NCBI RefSeq assembly: GCF_003852705.1 | Contig: NZ_REFA01000002.1 | Span: forward strand, 1-64,000 | Source of the DNA: Amniculibacterium aquaticum | GTDB lineage: Bacteria; Bacteroidota; Bacteroidia; Flavobacteriales; Weeksellaceae | Length of the DNA stretch: 64,000 nt | Direction of reading: 5' to 3' | In this document: piece after piece, positions 21,641 to 38,117 of the stretch | Layout: each line of letters begins with the position of its first letter | Position numbering within the stretch: the stretch's first letter is position 1 | Program-made: the position numbers and the translations under genes | Notes under the pieces: generated by a model | Seen by the model: only the letters and a program-made list of their open reading frames with translations | Database searches by the model: none | What the model was told of the DNA's origin: nothing

Positions 21641-21698
21641 AGAGCCTGTTTAGAAACAATCGAATTATTATTTCGGTGAAATTTTAAACGGGTTCTTA
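21641..21698. mobile_element. Short MITE-like element, copy A (GAGCC ends, TTA duplication)
   Basis: GAGCC...GGTTC spans 21642-21695 and is flanked on both sides by TTA. Its right half, read on the minus strand, begins AACCCGTTTAAAATTTCACC and continues for about 35 bases that match copy B at 32.6 kb with two differences. The terminal inverted repeats (GAGCCTGTTTAGAAA and GAACCCGTTTAAAAT) are imperfect. The right TTA is the stop codon of the reductase gene read on the minus strand. Short inverted ends with a 3-bp TNA duplication resemble the IS1031 group of the IS5 family, which could be the mobiliser. Confidence 0.6.
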
Positions 21699-22902: not shown

Positions 22903-23382
22903 ATGGAAAAAGAACTGAAAATCAATTTCGAGATTATTGAAGATAAAAATAGTTTGAATGCTATTGAAAATAAACTGTACAATGCCGCTATGGAAGCCCG
23001 AACCAAGGCATATGCCGTTTACTCCAATTTTTGGGTAGGTTGTGCCATTTTGTTGGAAAATGGCGAAGTGGTAACAGGAAGCAATCAAGAAAATGCTGCA
23101 TATCCTACCGGTTCTTGTGCCGAAAGGACGGCTATTTTTTGGGCTTCGGCCAATTATCCAAATATGAAAATTGAGAAATTATTCGTTATTGGAGCTCCCA
23201 AAGATGCTTTGAAATCGGTTCCTATTCCGCCTTGTGGCAATTGCCGACAAACCATTTTGGAGTATGAGGTGAAGCAAGATGAAAATATTGAAATTTATTT
23301 TGCCTCCTTGGATGGGGAGATCTACAAAACCAAATCCATCCGAAGTCTTTTACCGTTTTCTTTTGACGCTTCGTATTTGTAA
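22903..23382 (+). CDS. cdd: Cytidine deaminase
   Basis: The 159-residue enzyme deaminates cytidine and deoxycytidine to uridines in pyrimidine salvage. Zinc ligands and the catalytic Glu are in GSCAERTAIFWASANYP and PPCGNCRQTILEYE. The substrate loop VGCAILLENGEVVTGSNQENAAYPTG precedes them. The length fits the homotetrameric class. The TAA stop at 23380-23382 lies within the left direct repeat of the element that follows, so the element inserted at the very end of the gene. Confidence 0.96.
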   Translation: MEKELKINFEIIEDKNSLNAIENKLYNAAMEARTKAYAVYSNFWVGCAILLENGEVVTGSNQENAAYPTGSCAERTAIFWASANYPNMKIEKLFVIGAPKDALKSVPIPPCGNCRQTILEYEVKQDENIEIYFASLDGEIYKTKSIRSLLPFSFDASYL

Positions 23383-23384
23383 GA

Positions 23385-23588
23385 GCCACGGTATTCGCTT
23401 TTTAATAACTATGTGAAAAATTTATTTTCTATGATATCTTTTATTCATTATTTTACTTAAAAAGTCTATGAATCTATGGGGTTTAATATTTTCACCACAT
23501 AGTCACATAGGTTTTTGGTATGTAATAGAGGATTCTCATAGAAGCATTGCTTTCACAATAGCATAAAATTTATATGCGAACGCCGTTG
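23385..23588. repeat. 205-bp dispersed repeat, copy 1 (MITE-like)
   Basis: The element runs from GCCACGGTATTCGC to GCGAACGCCGTTG. Its ends are an imperfect inverted repeat. The same sequence occurs in inverse orientation at 37218-37423, with long identical blocks such as ATTATTTTACTTAAAAAGTC and GAAGCATTGCTTTCACAATA. The flanks TTGTAAGAGC and TTGTAAAGAGC form a near-perfect direct repeat, as expected of a target duplication. The interior carries CACATAG-type words common in Chryseobacterium-group intergenic repeats and has no open frame. Confidence 0.75.
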
Positions 23589-23627
23589 TAAAGAGCAAAA
23601 TATTTTTTAGCATTCAATAATATAATC

Positions 23628-23635
23628 TATCTTTG
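23628..23635 (+). promoter_or_regulatory. -7 box TATCTTTG ahead of the cobalamin riboswitch
   Basis: It is an exact TAnnTTTG match ending five bases before the aptamer begins. It would start the transcript at about 23640. Confidence 0.55.
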
Positions 23636-23640
23636 CACAA

Positions 23641-23781
23641 GTTTTGGAAAAGGGAATGGTGTGCAATTCACCAACTGTCCCCGCAACTGTAAAAGCTGCT
23701 GCCATTTTTTGGTAAAGAACGACAAATAATCCACTGATTTTTTCGGGAAGGAGTCGTTTAGCTAAGTCAGGAAACCTTGCC
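23641..23781 (+). promoter_or_regulatory. Cobalamin riboswitch
   Basis: Core elements are present in order: GGTGTGCAATTCACC (a stem-loop), CTGTCCCCGCAACTGTAA (the highly conserved junction, ~23676-23693) and the B12 box AAGTCAGGAAACCTTGCC (23764-23781). The variable middle hairpin region lies between. In the family, cobalamin binding docks loop L5 with L13 and shuts expression. The receptor gene starts 45 bases after the B12 box. In that interval GGAGGA (23807-23812) is an unusual Shine-Dalgarno-like sequence for this phylum, partly enclosed by ACTTT/AAAGT, which suggests translational control. It has its own promoter. Confidence 0.93.
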
Positions 23782-23825
23782 ATAACCTTTGATTATTACA
23801 ACTTTCGGAGGAAAAGTAGATTTTT

Positions 23826-25652
23826 ATGAAGACAAAATTAGCATTTGCAGCACTGCTCTGCGCACATTTTTTTTACTCCCAGGAGAAGGAAGTGAAAATT
23901 GATACGGTCGTTATTTTCGATAAAAAATTATCCGGACAAGATCGTTTTCACTCTATTCAAAAAATCTCTCCGGATCAAGTTCTAAAAAACGCCACCAACC
24001 TATCAGAAGTTTTACGATTCCAAACGCCAATTTATATCAAAGAGAACGGTAGAGGCTCTGTATCTTCGCCTTCATTTCGTGGGACCACAGCTCAGCAAAC
24101 GGCTTTTTTGTGGAACGGGCTTAACATTAATTCGGTTTTTTTAGGTCAAGGAGATATCAACAACATTGGTTTTTTATTGGCCGATGAGCTCAGCGTGAAG
24201 TCCGGTGGAGGATCGGTGATGTACGGATCTGCAGCGATTGGTGGAAGCATTCACCTGAACAATACTTTGACTTTTAACAAAGGATTTAGAAATCAACTCT
24301 ATTCGGAAGCCGCTTCATACGGTACTTTTCAAAATATTTTAAAAACTTCGTACAGCAACGATCAGTTCAGCGTTCAGCTCTCGGCTCATCATGGTGTTAG
24401 CGAAAACGATTACCATGTTGATGAAGTAAACTATACCAACTGGAACGGAAAATTCAGCAACGGAGCGGTTAATTTGGGTTTGGCGTATAAAATAAATCCT
24501 CAGCATCAAATTTCGTGGATCTCCGAATATTACAAGGGAAATCAACACTTTCCGATTTTTGATCCAGGACAAACGAAATCCAAATACCTGAGTACTAATT
24601 TTAGAACACTCGGGTTGTGGGATTGGACTTCTGAAAAATTCAACAATCATCTGCGATTGGCATTTACCGAAGACGAGTTTCAGTATTTTCAGGATAAAAA
24701 TGGATTGCAAAGTTCCGGCGGTACCGCCAAGAATTTCATCCTGAAAAACGATTTTGATTTTGATTTTTCCAAACAAGTATCTTTAAATGTTGTGGCCGAA
24801 CTTCAGCAAAATAAAGCCCAAGGTTATCTTTCCGGAATCGATGAGGTAAGCCGTTCGGTGTTTTCAGGAGCTGCGCTTTTGAGGTATCAACCCACAGCTG
24901 ATTTTCAGTTTGAAGCAGGAACAAAAAAAGAATCTGTACAAAAAATAAAATCGCCGTGGTTGTTTTCATTTGCCGGAAAATGGTCGGCATTGCCGAATTT
25001 CCAAACAGCCATTTCGGTTTCTAAAAATTTTAGATATCCCTCGTTCAACGATTTGTATTTTCAACCCGGAGGAAATCTCGATTTGCAACCGGAAACTTCC
25101 ATGCAATACGAATGGAAAAACGAATGGAAGAATAGAAATTTTTCCTTTAGCCTAACTCCATATTTTATGGATATTTCCGATATGATCCGTTGGTTGCCCA
25201 CTTCTGAGGGATATTGGAAGGCGTTCAATACCAATAAAGTACAATCTTACGGTGTAGAAACTCTGTTTACTTTTCAAAAAAAATGGAACGATCATTCGGT
25301 GAAAGCTTCTTTGGGCTATGCGTACACAAAATCCATCAACCAAGAAACCCGTATGCAATTGATGTATGTGCCGTATCACAAAGGCAACGGAATGGTTGAA
25401 TATCAGTACAAGAAAAATAAAATTTATTTGCAGGCTTTGGCCAACGGAAAAACCTATACCGATAGTATGCAAAAGGAGATGGATGCATTGCAACCCTATT
25501 TTATCCTGAATTCCGGAATCGAATTTCCTTGGACTGCGCATGTTGTTGTGGGTGCGAAAGTGAATAACATCTTCAGTGAGGTATATGCAACAACAGCGTA
25601 TTATTATATGCCAACCAGAAATTTTTCAGCAACCTTGAAACTTAACTTTTAA
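23826..25652 (+). CDS. btuB: TonB-dependent vitamin B12 receptor (BtuB-like)
   Basis: The 608-residue outer membrane protein has a signal peptide (MKTKLAFAALLCAHFFYSQ) and a TonB-box-like segment (KIDTVVIFD). A plug domain contains NATNLSEVLRFQTPIYIKENGRGS and GGGSVMYGSAAIGGSIHL. A 22-stranded barrel follows, with a terminal aromatic (NFSATLKLNF). The size and the riboswitch directly upstream identify corrinoid uptake. The TonB-ExbBD complex supplies energy from the inner membrane. The gene begins 45 bases after the B12 box and is followed after 13 bases by a beta-propeller lipoprotein. No BtuCDF genes are in the window. Cobalamin should repress it. Confidence 0.92.
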   Translation: MKTKLAFAALLCAHFFYSQEKEVKIDTVVIFDKKLSGQDRFHSIQKISPDQVLKNATNLSEVLRFQTPIYIKENGRGSVSSPSFRGTTAQQTAFLWNGLNINSVFLGQGDINNIGFLLADELSVKSGGGSVMYGSAAIGGSIHLNNTLTFNKGFRNQLYSEAASYGTFQNILKTSYSNDQFSVQLSAHHGVSENDYHVDEVNYTNWNGKFSNGAVNLGLAYKINPQHQISWISEYYKGNQHFPIFDPGQTKSKYLSTNFRTLGLWDWTSEKFNNHLRLAFTEDEFQYFQDKNGLQSSGGTAKNFILKNDFDFDFSKQVSLNVVAELQQNKAQGYLSGIDEVSRSVFSGAALLRYQPTADFQFEAGTKKESVQKIKSPWLFSFAGKWSALPNFQTAISVSKNFRYPSFNDLYFQPGGNLDLQPETSMQYEWKNEWKNRNFSFSLTPYFMDISDMIRWLPTSEGYWKAFNTNKVQSYGVETLFTFQKKWNDHSVKASLGYAYTKSINQETRMQLMYVPYHKGNGMVEYQYKKNKIYLQALANGKTYTDSMQKEMDALQPYFILNSGIEFPWTAHVVVGAKVNNIFSEVYATTAYYYMPTRNFSATLKLNF

Positions 25653-26765: not shown

Positions 26766-26915
26766 TCAATTAAATTGGTCGTTTTTCCAGCTATCCCAAT
26801 CCATACTTTTAGGATCTTCAAGTTCAGAGATTTTTAGAGCAACCCGTCCTGCTGTCCGCTGTATCTTTTGTGCCCAGGCTTTATCCCAAGGCATACAAAA
26901 GGATGCCGCTCCCAT
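26766..26915 (-). CDS. Possible 49-residue ORF, unknown
   Basis: On the minus strand a frame starts MGAASFCMPWDKAWAQKIQR, continues with VALKISELEDPKSMDWDSWKN and ends at TGA (26766-26768). The composition looks protein-like (Trp, Asp, Glu, Lys, no low complexity) and unlike the AT-rich surroundings. An in-frame stop lies a short way upstream, so it is either a genuine small protein or the tail of a decayed gene cut by the REP/RAYT element. A second start, MPWDKAW, would give 42 residues. I do not recognise it. Confidence 0.35.
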   Translation of the reverse strand: MGAASFCMPWDKAWAQKIQRTAGRVALKISELEDPKSMDWDSWKNDQFN

Positions 26916-26973
26916 CAGGGATAGGACAAAGGGTTGGTTTTGTTTTCAAATTTTTTGCGATTCGTCGTTTTGA

Positions 26974-27014
26974 GGGCTCGCCGAAGGCGAGTCCCCATTT
27001 TATTGTTTCATCAA
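26974..27014. repeat. REP-like hairpin plus 22-bp direct repeat, left outer copy
   Basis: GGGCTCGCC-GAA-GGCGAGTCC (26974-26994) forms a nine-pair GC-rich stem. It runs into CCCCATTTTATTGTTTCATCAA (26993-27014), which recurs exactly in the same orientation at 27734-27755 on the other side of the transposase gene. Confidence 0.8.
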
Positions 27015-27117: not shown

Positions 27118-27669
27118 TTAATTATTAACATCAATTTGTAAAATTTCATCATAATCATCACAATAATTCCTCGCACTGCTGTACTTCCATTCCCAAGGTT
27201 CCATGACAAAACCACTTTCTACAGGATTTTGGTGGATATAATTTAGCTTTTGTTCGAATACTTTTAAAGACCATATTTCAATTGGCTTATTATTTTGTTG
27301 CCATAATTGATAGTTTTTAACATTTGAAGTTCTTTCCCCTGCTTTTTTTAGCATCCACAGCAACCATTCTTTCCGACTTTCTTGATTGTTTTCTTGTATC
27401 GCTTCTATCAATTTTCGAGAAGTAAACCCTTTGAAATCTCGAATCAATTCTGATGGTTTTCCATCTGATGAACGGAATATCAAATGAATATGGCTGGGCA
27501 TGATACAATATCCAAAAATTGCCATTCCTTTATTTTTTCTACAATAATCCAAAGAAGCAATTACAATATCAAAATACTCCATCCTCGTAAAAAGGTCTAT
27601 CCAAAATACGGTAGCAAAGCTTATAAAATAAGCTCCATCTTTTTCTTTGAATTTATACTTTCTACTCAT
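27118..27669 (-). CDS. REP-associated tyrosine transposase (RAYT, IS200-like Y1 family)
   Basis: The 183-residue protein has the HxH metal site in CIMPSHIHLIF (His 60 and 62) and the Y1 nucleophile in KLNYIHQNPVESGFV (Tyr ~144), followed by the RAYT-typical WEWKYSSARNY. It begins MSRKYKFKEKDGAYFISFATVFW, also family-typical. RAYTs are single-copy relatives of IS200/IS605 TnpA that cut and rejoin REP hairpins. Here the gene is flanked on each side by an inner and an outer hairpin. No TnpB is present. It seems intact. Confidence 0.92.
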   Translation of the reverse strand: MSRKYKFKEKDGAYFISFATVFWIDLFTRMEYFDIVIASLDYCRKNKGMAIFGYCIMPSHIHLIFRSSDGKPSELIRDFKGFTSRKLIEAIQENNQESRKEWLLWMLKKAGERTSNVKNYQLWQQNNKPIEIWSLKVFEQKLNYIHQNPVESGFVMEPWEWKYSSARNYCDDYDEILQIDVNN

Positions 27670-27713: not shown

Positions 27714-27755
27714 GGGGCTCGCCTTCGGCGAGCCCCCATTTTATTGTTTCATCAA
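27714..27755. repeat. REP-like hairpin plus 22-bp direct repeat, right outer copy
   Basis: GGGGCTCGCC-TTC-GGCGAGCCCC (27714-27736) is a perfect ten-pair stem. It is followed by CCCCATTTTATTGTTTCATCAA (27734-27755), identical to the left copy. The unit ends 27 bases from the stop of the CCA-adding enzyme gene. Confidence 0.82.
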
Positions 27756-32619: not shown

Positions 32620-32727
32620 CTAAGAGCCCGTTTAAAATTTTACCGAAATAATAATTCGGCTATTTCTTATCTTTCTTATCTGCTTTTTTGTATTCTATTT
32701 AGATATAAAATTTAAAAAGGCTCTAAA
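32620..32727. mobile_element. MITE-like element, copy B (GAGCC ends, TAA duplication)
   Basis: GAGCCCGTTTAAAATTTTA (from 32624) and its partner at the right end, reading GAGCCTTTTTAAATTTTAT on the minus strand (to 32723), are imperfect 19-base inverted repeats. TAA flanks both ends. The first ~36 bases match copy A in inverted orientation. The 60-base interior is T-rich on the plus strand and non-coding. The element sits eight bases beyond the ferredoxin stop and may contribute to ending that transcript. Confidence 0.62.
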
Positions 32728-35044: not shown

Positions 35045-37141
35045 TTACCAAATTTTTACTCTTTGTTCAGGAGCTTTATAATGCTTATCTCCCGCTTGGA
35101 TGTTGAAGGCTTTGTACCAGGCATCGGTGTTTTCTAACGGCCCGAAACTTCTAAAATATCCTGGAGAGTGCGGATCGGTTTTTACTTGGTTCAACATGTA
35201 TTTTTCTGAAGAAAGCGTTCTCCAAACGGTTGCCCAACTTAGGAAAAATCTTTGGTCTTGGCTGTAACCGCTGATGTTTCCGGGGTTTCCATGATCTTTA
35301 AGATACATTTGAAGAGCATCAAAGGCAATGTTTACACCACCAAGATCGGCGATGTTTTCTCCGTTGGTAAATGTTCCGTTTACTTTTGTTCCTTTCACCG
35401 GTTCGTACTGATCGTATTGGGCAGCCAAGGCTTTTGTTGCTTTTTCAAAGTTGGCTTTATCTTCTGGAGTCCACCAATCGACCAAATTTCCATCAGCATC
35501 AAACTGTGCTCCGGAATCGTCGAATCCATGGGTAATTTCGTGACCGATAACCGCACCAATTCCACCGAAATTAATTGCAGCATCTGCATTGGGGTTGAAG
35601 AAAGGCGGTTGTAGGATGGCAGCTGGGAAAACGATTTCATTGTTCAAAGGGTTGTAGTATGCATTAACCGTTTGCGGGGTCATTCCCCATTCAGCTTTAT
35701 CAACTGCTTTGCCCACTTTGTCCAGATCTTTTTGGTATTGCCATTCGGTAATGTTTTGTAGGTTTTTATACAAAGATCCACCGTCTTTTTCTGAAAGGAT
35801 TACCAATTTAGAATAGTCTTTCCACTTGTCGGGATAAGCGACTTTTACTGTGAATTTGTTTAGTTTTTCAATGGCTTTTTTCTTGGTGGTGTCGGACATC
35901 CAGCTTAGGTTTTTGATGTGCTGGTCGAAGCTTTTTAGTAGATAATCGACCAAGACCACCATTTTTTGTTTGTCGGCTTCCGAGAAATATTTTTGAACAT
36001 ACAATTTACCAAAAGCCTCACCCAAACTTCCGTTGATTAATTGGTAAGCTCTCTTGTTTAGGGCTCTTTGTTCTTGTTGTCCGTTGAGGTATTTGCCATA
36101 AAAATCAAATTTTTTATTATCCAAATCTTGGGTCAGATAGCTGGCAGAACTGGATAATAAATGAAATTTCATGTAATCCTTGATGGTTGCAAGATTTTTC
36201 TCGTTGATGAGGGTGTCAAAATTTTCAAAGAATTTTTTCTCGCCAACAATTACCTTATCGGTTTTTACTCCTACTTTAGCCAGATAATCTTGAAGGTTGA
36301 TGGTTTTAACCGTTTTTTTCAACTCGGCCATGGTCATTGGGTTGTATTGCAATGTCGCATCTCGAATTTGTTCGTTGTTCAGGTAGGTATTGGCAATTTT
36401 CTTCTCCAAATCCACAATGTTTTTTGCTACAATTTTAGGATTTTTGTATCCCAAAACTTCCAACATAGAACTTACGAATTCTGTATATTTTGCAAGAGTT
36501 TCTGTATTTTTAGCATTTACTTTTTGGTAATAATCTCTACCCAATCCCAATTCGGGATTTCCAAGATAGACGGCATTCATCTTGCTGTCTTTCATGTCGG
36601 CATCTACACCCCAAGCGTACAAAGTATTTTCACCATTTTTTGTGGCTTCTATCATGTATTTTTGCAAGTCGCTGATGTTTTTTATGGCATCAATTTTTGC
36701 TAAATCGTTTTTAATTGGGTTAATGCCATCGGCATTTCTCTTGTCCATGTCCATGTAAGATGCATAAAGATCTTGAATTTTTTTGCCTTCGCTTCCTGCA
36801 TCAAAATGTTCTTTTAACAAGTTATTTAGGATGGTCATGGAGTTGTTGTCCGTGTCTTCGCCCAATTTGTTGAAGCTTCCCCAAGTGGATTTGTCTGCCG
36901 GGATTTTGGCGGTTTTCATCCAAGTTCCGTTTACGAAATTGTAAAAATCGTCTTGTGGTCGTACGGATTTATCCATTGCCGTAAGGTCCAAACCGTTTTC
37001 TTTGGGTTCTTCTTTTTTAGTTTCTGGAAGGGTGTTTTCCATGGCTTTTGTGTTTTGTGTTGTATTTTTTGGTGTCGTGTTGCACGAGGTAAATGATAAT
37101 AAACCTGCAAAAGCAAGAATGCCGATATTTAATTTTTTCAT
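35045..37141 (-). CDS. M13-family (neprilysin/PepO-like) metallopeptidase, lipoprotein
   Basis: The 698-residue protein begins MKKLNIGILAFAGLLSFTSC, a lipoprotein signal with Cys ~20, then a Thr/Lys/Asn-rich tether. The zinc site is VIGHEITHGFDDSGAQFD with the third ligand in ENIADLGGVNIAFDAL, and the NAYYNPLNNEIVFPAAILQPP substrate-binding segment is complete. The chain ends PEQRVKIW, the usual M13 C-terminus. Such enzymes trim oligopeptides in the periplasm or at the cell surface. The longer frame adds 24 residues ahead of a good signal peptide and is rejected. A -7 box lies 30 bases upstream. Confidence 0.95.
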   Translation of the reverse strand: MKKLNIGILAFAGLLSFTSCNTTPKNTTQNTKAMENTLPETKKEEPKENGLDLTAMDKSVRPQDDFYNFVNGTWMKTAKIPADKSTWGSFNKLGEDTDNNSMTILNNLLKEHFDAGSEGKKIQDLYASYMDMDKRNADGINPIKNDLAKIDAIKNISDLQKYMIEATKNGENTLYAWGVDADMKDSKMNAVYLGNPELGLGRDYYQKVNAKNTETLAKYTEFVSSMLEVLGYKNPKIVAKNIVDLEKKIANTYLNNEQIRDATLQYNPMTMAELKKTVKTINLQDYLAKVGVKTDKVIVGEKKFFENFDTLINEKNLATIKDYMKFHLLSSSASYLTQDLDNKKFDFYGKYLNGQQEQRALNKRAYQLINGSLGEAFGKLYVQKYFSEADKQKMVVLVDYLLKSFDQHIKNLSWMSDTTKKKAIEKLNKFTVKVAYPDKWKDYSKLVILSEKDGGSLYKNLQNITEWQYQKDLDKVGKAVDKAEWGMTPQTVNAYYNPLNNEIVFPAAILQPPFFNPNADAAINFGGIGAVIGHEITHGFDDSGAQFDADGNLVDWWTPEDKANFEKATKALAAQYDQYEPVKGTKVNGTFTNGENIADLGGVNIAFDALQMYLKDHGNPGNISGYSQDQRFFLSWATVWRTLSSEKYMLNQVKTDPHSPGYFRSFGPLENTDAWYKAFNIQAGDKHYKAPEQRVKIW

Positions 37142-37170
37142 GTAAATGATTTTACTATAATTTTGAAGAG

Positions 37171-37209: not shown

Positions 37210-37431
37210 GCAAATCTCCACGGCGTTCGCATTTAAATTTTATGCTATTGTGAAAGCAATGCTTCTATGAAAAGAACTCTCTATTACAAACCAAAACCTA
37301 TGTGGCTGTGTGGTGAAAATATAAAACCACACAGATTCATAGACTTTTTAAGTAAAATAATGGATAAAAGATATTATAGAAAATACATTTTTCACATGGT
37401 TTTTTAAAAGAGAATGCTGTGGCAAATCTCC
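37210..37431. repeat. 205-bp dispersed repeat, copy 2 (MITE-like)
   Basis: The element (37218-37423) is the reverse-orientation copy of the one at 23385-23588, about 85% identical by eye. Its ends read CCACGGCGTTCGC and, on the other strand, CCACAGCATTCTC. It is flanked by the exact 10-base direct repeat GCAAATCTCC at 37210-37219 and 37422-37431, as expected of a target duplication. It fills nearly all of the space between the M13 promoter and the end of the DUF2807 gene. No coding potential was seen. Confidence 0.8.
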
Positions 37432-37448: not shown

Positions 37449-38117
37449 TTATTTTATAAAATTGATTTTCCCACCCAAAACGGTTTTGGTATTTCTGTCT
37501 TTGGGATTCCCCAAAATGTCCACAACACCGCCGGCTCTGGTTTTTACGATAACGGATTCTTTGGCATAGATGCTGGCGTGTCCTCCTGCATTTGCAGTCG
37601 CTTCGGTTTCTTGTGAAATTAATTCTTTTCCGAAATATTTTGCTCCGGAATTGATGATAAGGTCTTGTTTTTCTGCGGTTCCCTTCAAGTGGATTTGGCC
37701 GCCGGAATTGGCTTTAATGCTCAGATTTTTAACATCCAAATCGAGCTTGATTACCGATCCTTCGTTGGCAGTAAGTTGTAGTCGATTGCCATTAACCGTT
37801 GCATTGGAACTGATGCTGGCACCTTGACTGCCTTGTATTTCTTGTAATTTGGTGTAATATACTTTTATTTTTGTATCGGCTCCTTGCATCAATAGCGTTG
37901 GGATCATTCGTATTTTTAGTTCTCCGTTTTTGTTGACCAATTCTACATCCTGGTCGTTGTTGCTGATGATTTCTACCTTAGAATCCTTTGAGGGTACGAG
38001 TTCTACTGAAATTTTATCGTAGGCTTTAACTGCTGAAAAATCACCTAGATTCTTTGTGCTTTGAGCGGTGAAAAATTGTACAAAACAAAGGGTGGAAACG
38101 GTTATAAGTTGTCGCAT
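37449..38117 (-). CDS. Head-GIN (DUF2807) domain protein, exported
   Basis: The 222-residue protein has a signal peptide (MRQLITVSTLCFVQFFTAQS) and then repeating beta-solenoid-like strands: NLGDFSAVKAYDKISVELVPS, IKVYYTKLQEIQGSQGASISSNATVNG, LSIKANSGGQIHLKGTAEKQDLIINSGAKY and AGGHASIYAKESVIVKTRAGGVVDILGNP. This Gly/Ser/Asn pattern is the DUF2807 signature in Bacteroidota. Its role is unknown. An auto-transporter adhesin-like surface role has been proposed for relatives. Confidence 0.87.
   Translation of the reverse strand: MRQLITVSTLCFVQFFTAQSTKNLGDFSAVKAYDKISVELVPSKDSKVEIISNNDQDVELVNKNGELKIRMIPTLLMQGADTKIKVYYTKLQEIQGSQGASISSNATVNGNRLQLTANEGSVIKLDLDVKNLSIKANSGGQIHLKGTAEKQDLIINSGAKYFGKELISQETEATANAGGHASIYAKESVIVKTRAGGVVDILGNPKDRNTKTVLGGKINFIK

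Follow-up and report, generated by a model that had tools for sequence, protein, structure and literature searches.

A non-coding element of about 204 bp in Amniculibacterium aquaticum: a MITE probably moved by an ISAs1-family transposase

The presence of two inverted copies of a non-coding sequence within the 64,000-nucleotide window analysed here (positions 1 to 64,000 of Amniculibacterium aquaticum contig NZ_REFA01000002.1) raises the question of whether such a sequence is a transposed non-autonomous element, as the original prediction proposed, or a repeat that is kept for its structure, and, if it is mobile, which transposase moved it. The predicted pair of reverse-complement copies about 85% identical is real and slightly more alike than first thought; i.e. 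181 of 204 aligned positions (89%) agree between the two, which are inverted relative to each other. The copies and the genes adjoining them are arranged as follows:

37219..37421, + strand: copy 2 of the element, 203 bp (from the sequence and the own-genome search)
23387..~23585/23587, - strand: copy 1 of the element, one end seemingly about two terminal bases short
22903..23382, + strand: cdd, cytidine deaminase, left of copy 1
23606..23798, + strand: cobalamin riboswitch (RF00174, by Rfam), right of copy 1
23826-25652: TonB-dependent receptor gene, downstream of the cobalamin riboswitch
35045..37142, - strand: M13-family peptidase gene (PepO-like) adjoining copy 2, its ATG inferred at 37142
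37449-38117, - strand: DUF2807 gene, its 3' end facing copy 2

Neither window copy is overlapped by an ORF of 80 aa or more, and the element has no room for a transposase. A sequence search of the own genome (G000, 2.55 Mb in 74 contigs) yields four full copies of 201-204 bp that share 181-192 of 204 aligned positions in pairwise comparison. Copy 2 used as query retrieves copy 1 at E 4.8e-72, and the two full copies outside the window lie on contigs C5 (51784-51987) and C10 (76718-76921); weaker partial similarities are found elsewhere in this genome, e.g. C15:47855-47956. Copy 1 had been thought to begin at the last codon of cdd, but it is the left duplication that spans this codon together with the stop; the element itself begins four bases further on. 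Copy 2 had been assigned to a gene-end gap, which is correct for the side occupied by the DUF2807 gene 3' end but not for the other side, which is the upstream region of the M13 peptidase gene. A promoter motif of the TAnnTTTG type used in this phylum can be seen in the interval from each copy to the gene that follows, and from their position the copies appear to be situated outside the promoters of those genes. The window contains other repeats and RNAs as well: a pair of 41-base direct repeats (26974-27014 and 27715-27755, 90% identical, a GC-rich hairpin in either one) around an ORF at 27118-27669, a 47-base inverted repeat pair (21652-21698 and 32621-32667, 89% complementary), both members of which adjoin a long ORF at its 3' end, and a Flavo-1 RNA (RF01705) at 26841-26926 on the minus strand.

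The boundaries of the element are set by inverted ends that are bordered in turn by direct repeats, located in the window as follows:

37219..37236, + strand: left terminal inverted repeat of copy 2, CACGGCGTTCGCATTTAA
37404..37421, - strand: right terminal inverted repeat of copy 2, inward reading CACAGCATTCTCTTTTAA
37210..37218, unstranded: left target-site duplication of copy 2, GCAAATCTC
37422..37430, unstranded: right target-site duplication of copy 2, GCAAATCTC
23377..23386, unstranded: target-site duplication of copy 1, TTGTAAGAGC, over the cdd last codon and stop
23586..23596, unstranded: target-site duplication of copy 1, TTGTAAAGAGC, with one base more than the other

When all copies are oriented as copy 2, the left ends read CACGGCGTTCGC, CAAGGCGTTCGC and CAGGGTATTCGC, with AACGGCGTTCGC for copy 1, and the right ends read inward as CACAGCATTCTC, CACGGCATTCAC, CACGGCATTCGC and CACGGTATTCGC. 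The left-end consensus of the four copies is CANGG-Y-R-TTCGC, the C10 left end starting CAGGG. The imperfection of the inverted ends that had been noted is borne out by the match between the left and right ends of the same copy, 14 of 18 bases in copy 2 and 12 of 18 in copy 1, and 12-14 of 18 across the four copies. Direct repeats of ~8-10 bp border all four full copies. The exact 10-base repeat reported for copy 2 is confirmed as GCAAATCTC plus a tenth matching base (C); the copy 1 repeats differ by one inserted A; the C5 copy has GCTTGTTAAT at its junctions, and the C10 copy CTTCCGTT, with 8 exact bases followed by a mismatch. Inconsistent ends or flanks, which had been named as evidence against mobility, are thus not seen: the four full copies have common ends and flanking duplications.

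The likelihood of such junction repeats arising at random was estimated from 200,000 pairs of sites drawn at random from the window at a spacing of 204 bp and scored for the exact word shared: words of at least 11 bases are found in 7 pairs, of at least 10 in 49, and of at least 8 in 614. Copy 2 has a shared word of 11, two of these being the element's own bases (random frequency 3.5e-5), the C5 copy one of 10 (2.5e-4), the C10 copy one of 8 (0.003), and copy 1 one of just 6 (0.05), the exact word being short because of the indel in this copy. Taken together the four junction repeats are far beyond chance; that of copy 1 alone is not.

Comparison with two relatives of the genus (G001 and G002) allows several insertion sites to be viewed without the element. 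The most direct case is the copy 1 locus in G001, where the cdd-side and riboswitch-side matches are 14 bases apart, as compared to 251 in the window; the G001 spacer has diverged, so that the pre-insertion target is unreadable, and an exact single-copy target was not seen at any of the loci compared. For copy 2 and the C10 copy the comparison pertains to one conserved flank, a weaker test than that of copy 1: the element is absent upstream of the pepO and folE homologues in both G001 and G002. No counterpart of the C5 region was found in G001 or G002. Conservation at orthologous sites, the other result that had been considered adverse to a mobile element, is consequently not observed at the three loci that can be viewed (that of copy 1 just in G001, those upstream of pepO and folE in both relatives), although a diverged interior lacking the ends lies at seemingly the same place in G000 and G001. 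This interior relative is located downstream of an hsdS-like gene and before a Fic-type gene, as read by eye (loci L005 in G000 and L053 in G001), and is apparently an older shared insertion, an old fixed copy of the interior. In G000 (contig C15, L005 ~1391-1772) it is bordered on both sides by a near-identical ~57-bp direct repeat, and the equivalent place in G001 (L053) has a similar repeat to the right. Upstream of pepO both G001 (L053) and G002 (L096) contain the stretch ATGAAGAT.AGCGATTG...TTGACCATTAAAAA.AATAA.TATCTAC, possibly another repeat of the genus.

The four copies with common ends, the direct repeats at their junctions and the absence of the element at matching places in relatives uphold the original reading of a transposed non-autonomous element, and it is very highly probable that the element is a MITE of one parent or another. 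Its distribution is narrow. A search of 40 relatives (E 0.01) gave matches in 16 genomes, G000 counted, the matches outside G000 and G001 being short pieces of 22-67 bases in the contig; when 296 genomes of the bacterial family were searched at E 1e-6, with two candidates per genome scored, three matched including G000, and the plasmid and phage collections gave no match to the element. In G001 there is one complete diverged cousin (L054 1366-1581, 216 bp, ends CAGGGCAAACGGGTTTAA and AAGGGCAAACGGGTTAAA), flanked by the direct repeat GTTCTTTGTCT, together with four further cousins that are cut off at contig ends (L031, L046, L051, L052); by BLAST the G001 cousins are 69-85% identical to copy 2 over parts of 38-95 bases only. 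The L054 cousin resembles the four copies in its end-to-end MAFFT alignment, core, palindromic interior and flanking direct repeat, but differs in having CAGGGCAAACGGG ends.

Pattern searches give a similar picture when read against their reversed controls. The 20-base core GTGAAAGCAAWGCTTCTATG, allowing up to two mismatches, is found in 9 of 296 genomes, with multiple matches in G000 and G001 only, where it is exact in four of six matches each; the reversed control pattern matches in 5 genomes, G001 included, and the single core matches in the seven other genomes are therefore at chance level. The exact core occurs in four GTDB contigs, all of the MAG SZAS-81, in a set from which records near the own genome may be left out. 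A pattern for the ends gave 9 matches in G000, G001 and G002, five of them from the four known copies, and its reversed control 3, 1 and 1 matches in these genomes, so that end-pattern matches alone mean little. Among the remaining four, L084 and L087 of G000 do not continue as the element and were rejected, and the other two are in G001. At L080 (1501-1582) there is an 82-bp sequence with CACGG-type ends resembling those of the element, a different interior and a weak flanking repeat in an A-rich stretch, and at L082 (1501-1563) a doubtful CAAGGTGTTCGC end with a possible partner nearby and no flanking duplication.

The duplication of ~9-10 bp and the CAGGG-like ends together bring the ISAs1 family under suspicion as the source of the transposase. 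The original prediction knew of no named family with a duplication of this length; ISAs1 is one, being described in PMC11946415 as having 14-22-bp ends that begin CAGGG and a 10-bp direct repeat, and similar ends exist in the same bacterial family. PF13808 has matches in 10 of the 296 family genomes, above cut-off in 9. There are 18 PF13808 matches, of which eight loci were scanned by script for ends with duplications: a clear end pair was found in three (L104, L111, L112) and none in five (L101, L102, L103, L105, L107), L105 having both ends in the absence of a matching duplication. A script demanding CANGG at the ends found no convincing pair because most ISAs1 ends here start TAGG. With a fourth element read by eye (L108), the delimited elements (two in G205, one each in G041 and G244) have TAGGGCAAACGCATGAAA ends or close variants and direct repeats of 8-11 bp. 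The ISAs1 elements of the bacterial family are ~1150 bp with transposases of 363-368 aa, those of L112 and L111 matching NCBIfam NF033564. The element is like these insertion sequences (NF033564; G205, G041) in the length of its duplication, ~8-10 bp as compared to 8-11 bp, and to a moderate degree in its ends, of the form (T/C)AGG...CGCA..; it is unlike them in that they are ~1150 bp and encode a transposase, and in that the ends of the own-genome copies differ at 5-8 of 18 bases.

When six elements are compared at both ends with four end strings of ISAs1, the resulting 12 ends match at 12, 10, 11, 11, 12, 11, 13, 12, 14, 13, 11 and 8 of 18 bases; in a control drawn from the window, with both copies inside, 0.09% of positions score at least 12, 0.39% at least 11 and 11% at least 8. 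The fit is strong for the G001 cousin and moderate for the own-genome copies, which reach 10-13 of 18 against the best ISAs1 string (10-12 for the two window copies) and have TT at end bases 8-9 instead of the AA of ISAs1. Both ends of the G001 cousin contain AGGGCAAACG, ten consecutive bases that are identical to ISAs1 ends and stand at the same position next to the terminal base. On this end similarity and the duplication length, the mover is probably ISAs1, and we consider the element to be, quite probably, a non-coding MITE of ~204 bp that an ISAs1-family transposase has moved. An ISAs1-family DDE transposase acting in trans would bind the CANGG... ends of the MITE and move it, leaving a 9-10-bp target duplication, and would since have been lost or be missing from the draft assembly.

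Searches with PF13808 and an ISAs1 transposase query found no ISAs1 transposase in G002 or in G000, whose assembly is a draft in 74 contigs. In G001 a transposase remnant is present, a 135-aa ORF that matches PF13808 above cut-off and NF033564 positions 1-51 of 314 below cut-off. A second weak PF13808 match in G001 (C354), itself below cut-off, was taken as false, since it lies in frame in an ORF resembling an ABC ATPase by eye. A MITE may persist after its parent has gone, and need not have its cognate transposase beside it in the genome. Given that none was found, the MITE family would now be immobile in its own genome unless a transposase arrives.

The leading alternative, and an unlikely one, is that the MITE was moved by some other family of DDE insertion sequences with duplications of 9-10 bp. 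Duplications of about this size are produced by several families besides ISAs1, the own-genome ends match the ISAs1 strings at the modest level given above, and no full-length partner with the exact CACGGCGTTCGC ends was found in the own genome or the two genus relatives. Against this stand the ISAs1-identical bases at both ends of the G001 cousin and the CAGGG start of the C10 left end. A possible, quite tentative extension of ISAs1-driven movement is that of a genus-specific MITE lineage whose ends drifted away from those of ISAs1 together with an ISAs1 subgroup, now lost or not sampled, that bore CACGGCGTTCGC ends; its interior would be a captured palindrome of a type found also in another genus of the family, its conserved 20-base core may serve transposition or transcription, and the 82-bp L080 sequence may belong to the same set.

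The interior of the element, as seen by eye and by folding, is a nested palindrome in which the outer ends enclose a subterminal pair (GTGAAA...TTCTATG), with a CTATGTG hairpin innermost. The RNA fold of copy 2 reaches -55.3 kcal/mol (z -5.96) and its DNA fold z -3.63, in each case with 0 of 200 shuffles as good. This RNA fold, the exactness of the core in most of its matches in G000 and G001 and the diverged interior copy seemingly at the same place in these two genomes would favor a structural RNA or a regulatory repeat, such as a terminator or attenuator, that is kept for its fold and is not mobile. A strong fold is however expected of any long inverted-repeat element, and is normal here and no proof of RNA function; Rfam places no family at gathering thresholds over either copy; direct repeats occur at every full copy; the neighboring genes are unrelated between copies; and the element is absent at matching places in relatives, all of which makes such an RNA very improbable. 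An ordinary dispersed palindrome of the REP-like kind that happens to be flanked by direct repeats might be supposed from the resemblance of the CTATGTG-type hairpin to a palindrome of G289 in another genus of the family (80%, query positions 85-157). This can be practically dismissed since junction repeats so long are rare at random and are found at all four full copies, just where the inverted ends place the boundary.

The ISAs1-moved MITE thus favored is of a fairly ordinary mobile kind and leaves the general picture unchanged; its value is that a transposable element family is named in a small genus, in which three genomes were compared, along with its likely driver, and that it can help in the annotation of intergenic sequence and serve to mark past transposition. 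MITEs are reported in numbers in other work, fifteen and more in PMC3542288 and three in PMC5756416, where a 206-bp MITEAeca1 is also mentioned. No description of an ISAs1-derived MITE was found in the literature searched, a weak negative with ISfinder outside its scope and some MITE parents unseen. The closest systems, bacterial MITEs at large, with MITEPye1 of Paracoccus yeei and MITECca01 of Cardinium as examples, differ in belonging to other parent families (IS1182 and IS982, respectively), and here the parent insertion sequence is not found in the genome. MITECca01 is nevertheless like the element in being small, without transposase and with inverted ends (PMC9769881), and MITEPye1 shares with it a small transposase-free form, inverted ends, direct repeats, a few intergenic copies and a long stem-loop (PMC11578231).
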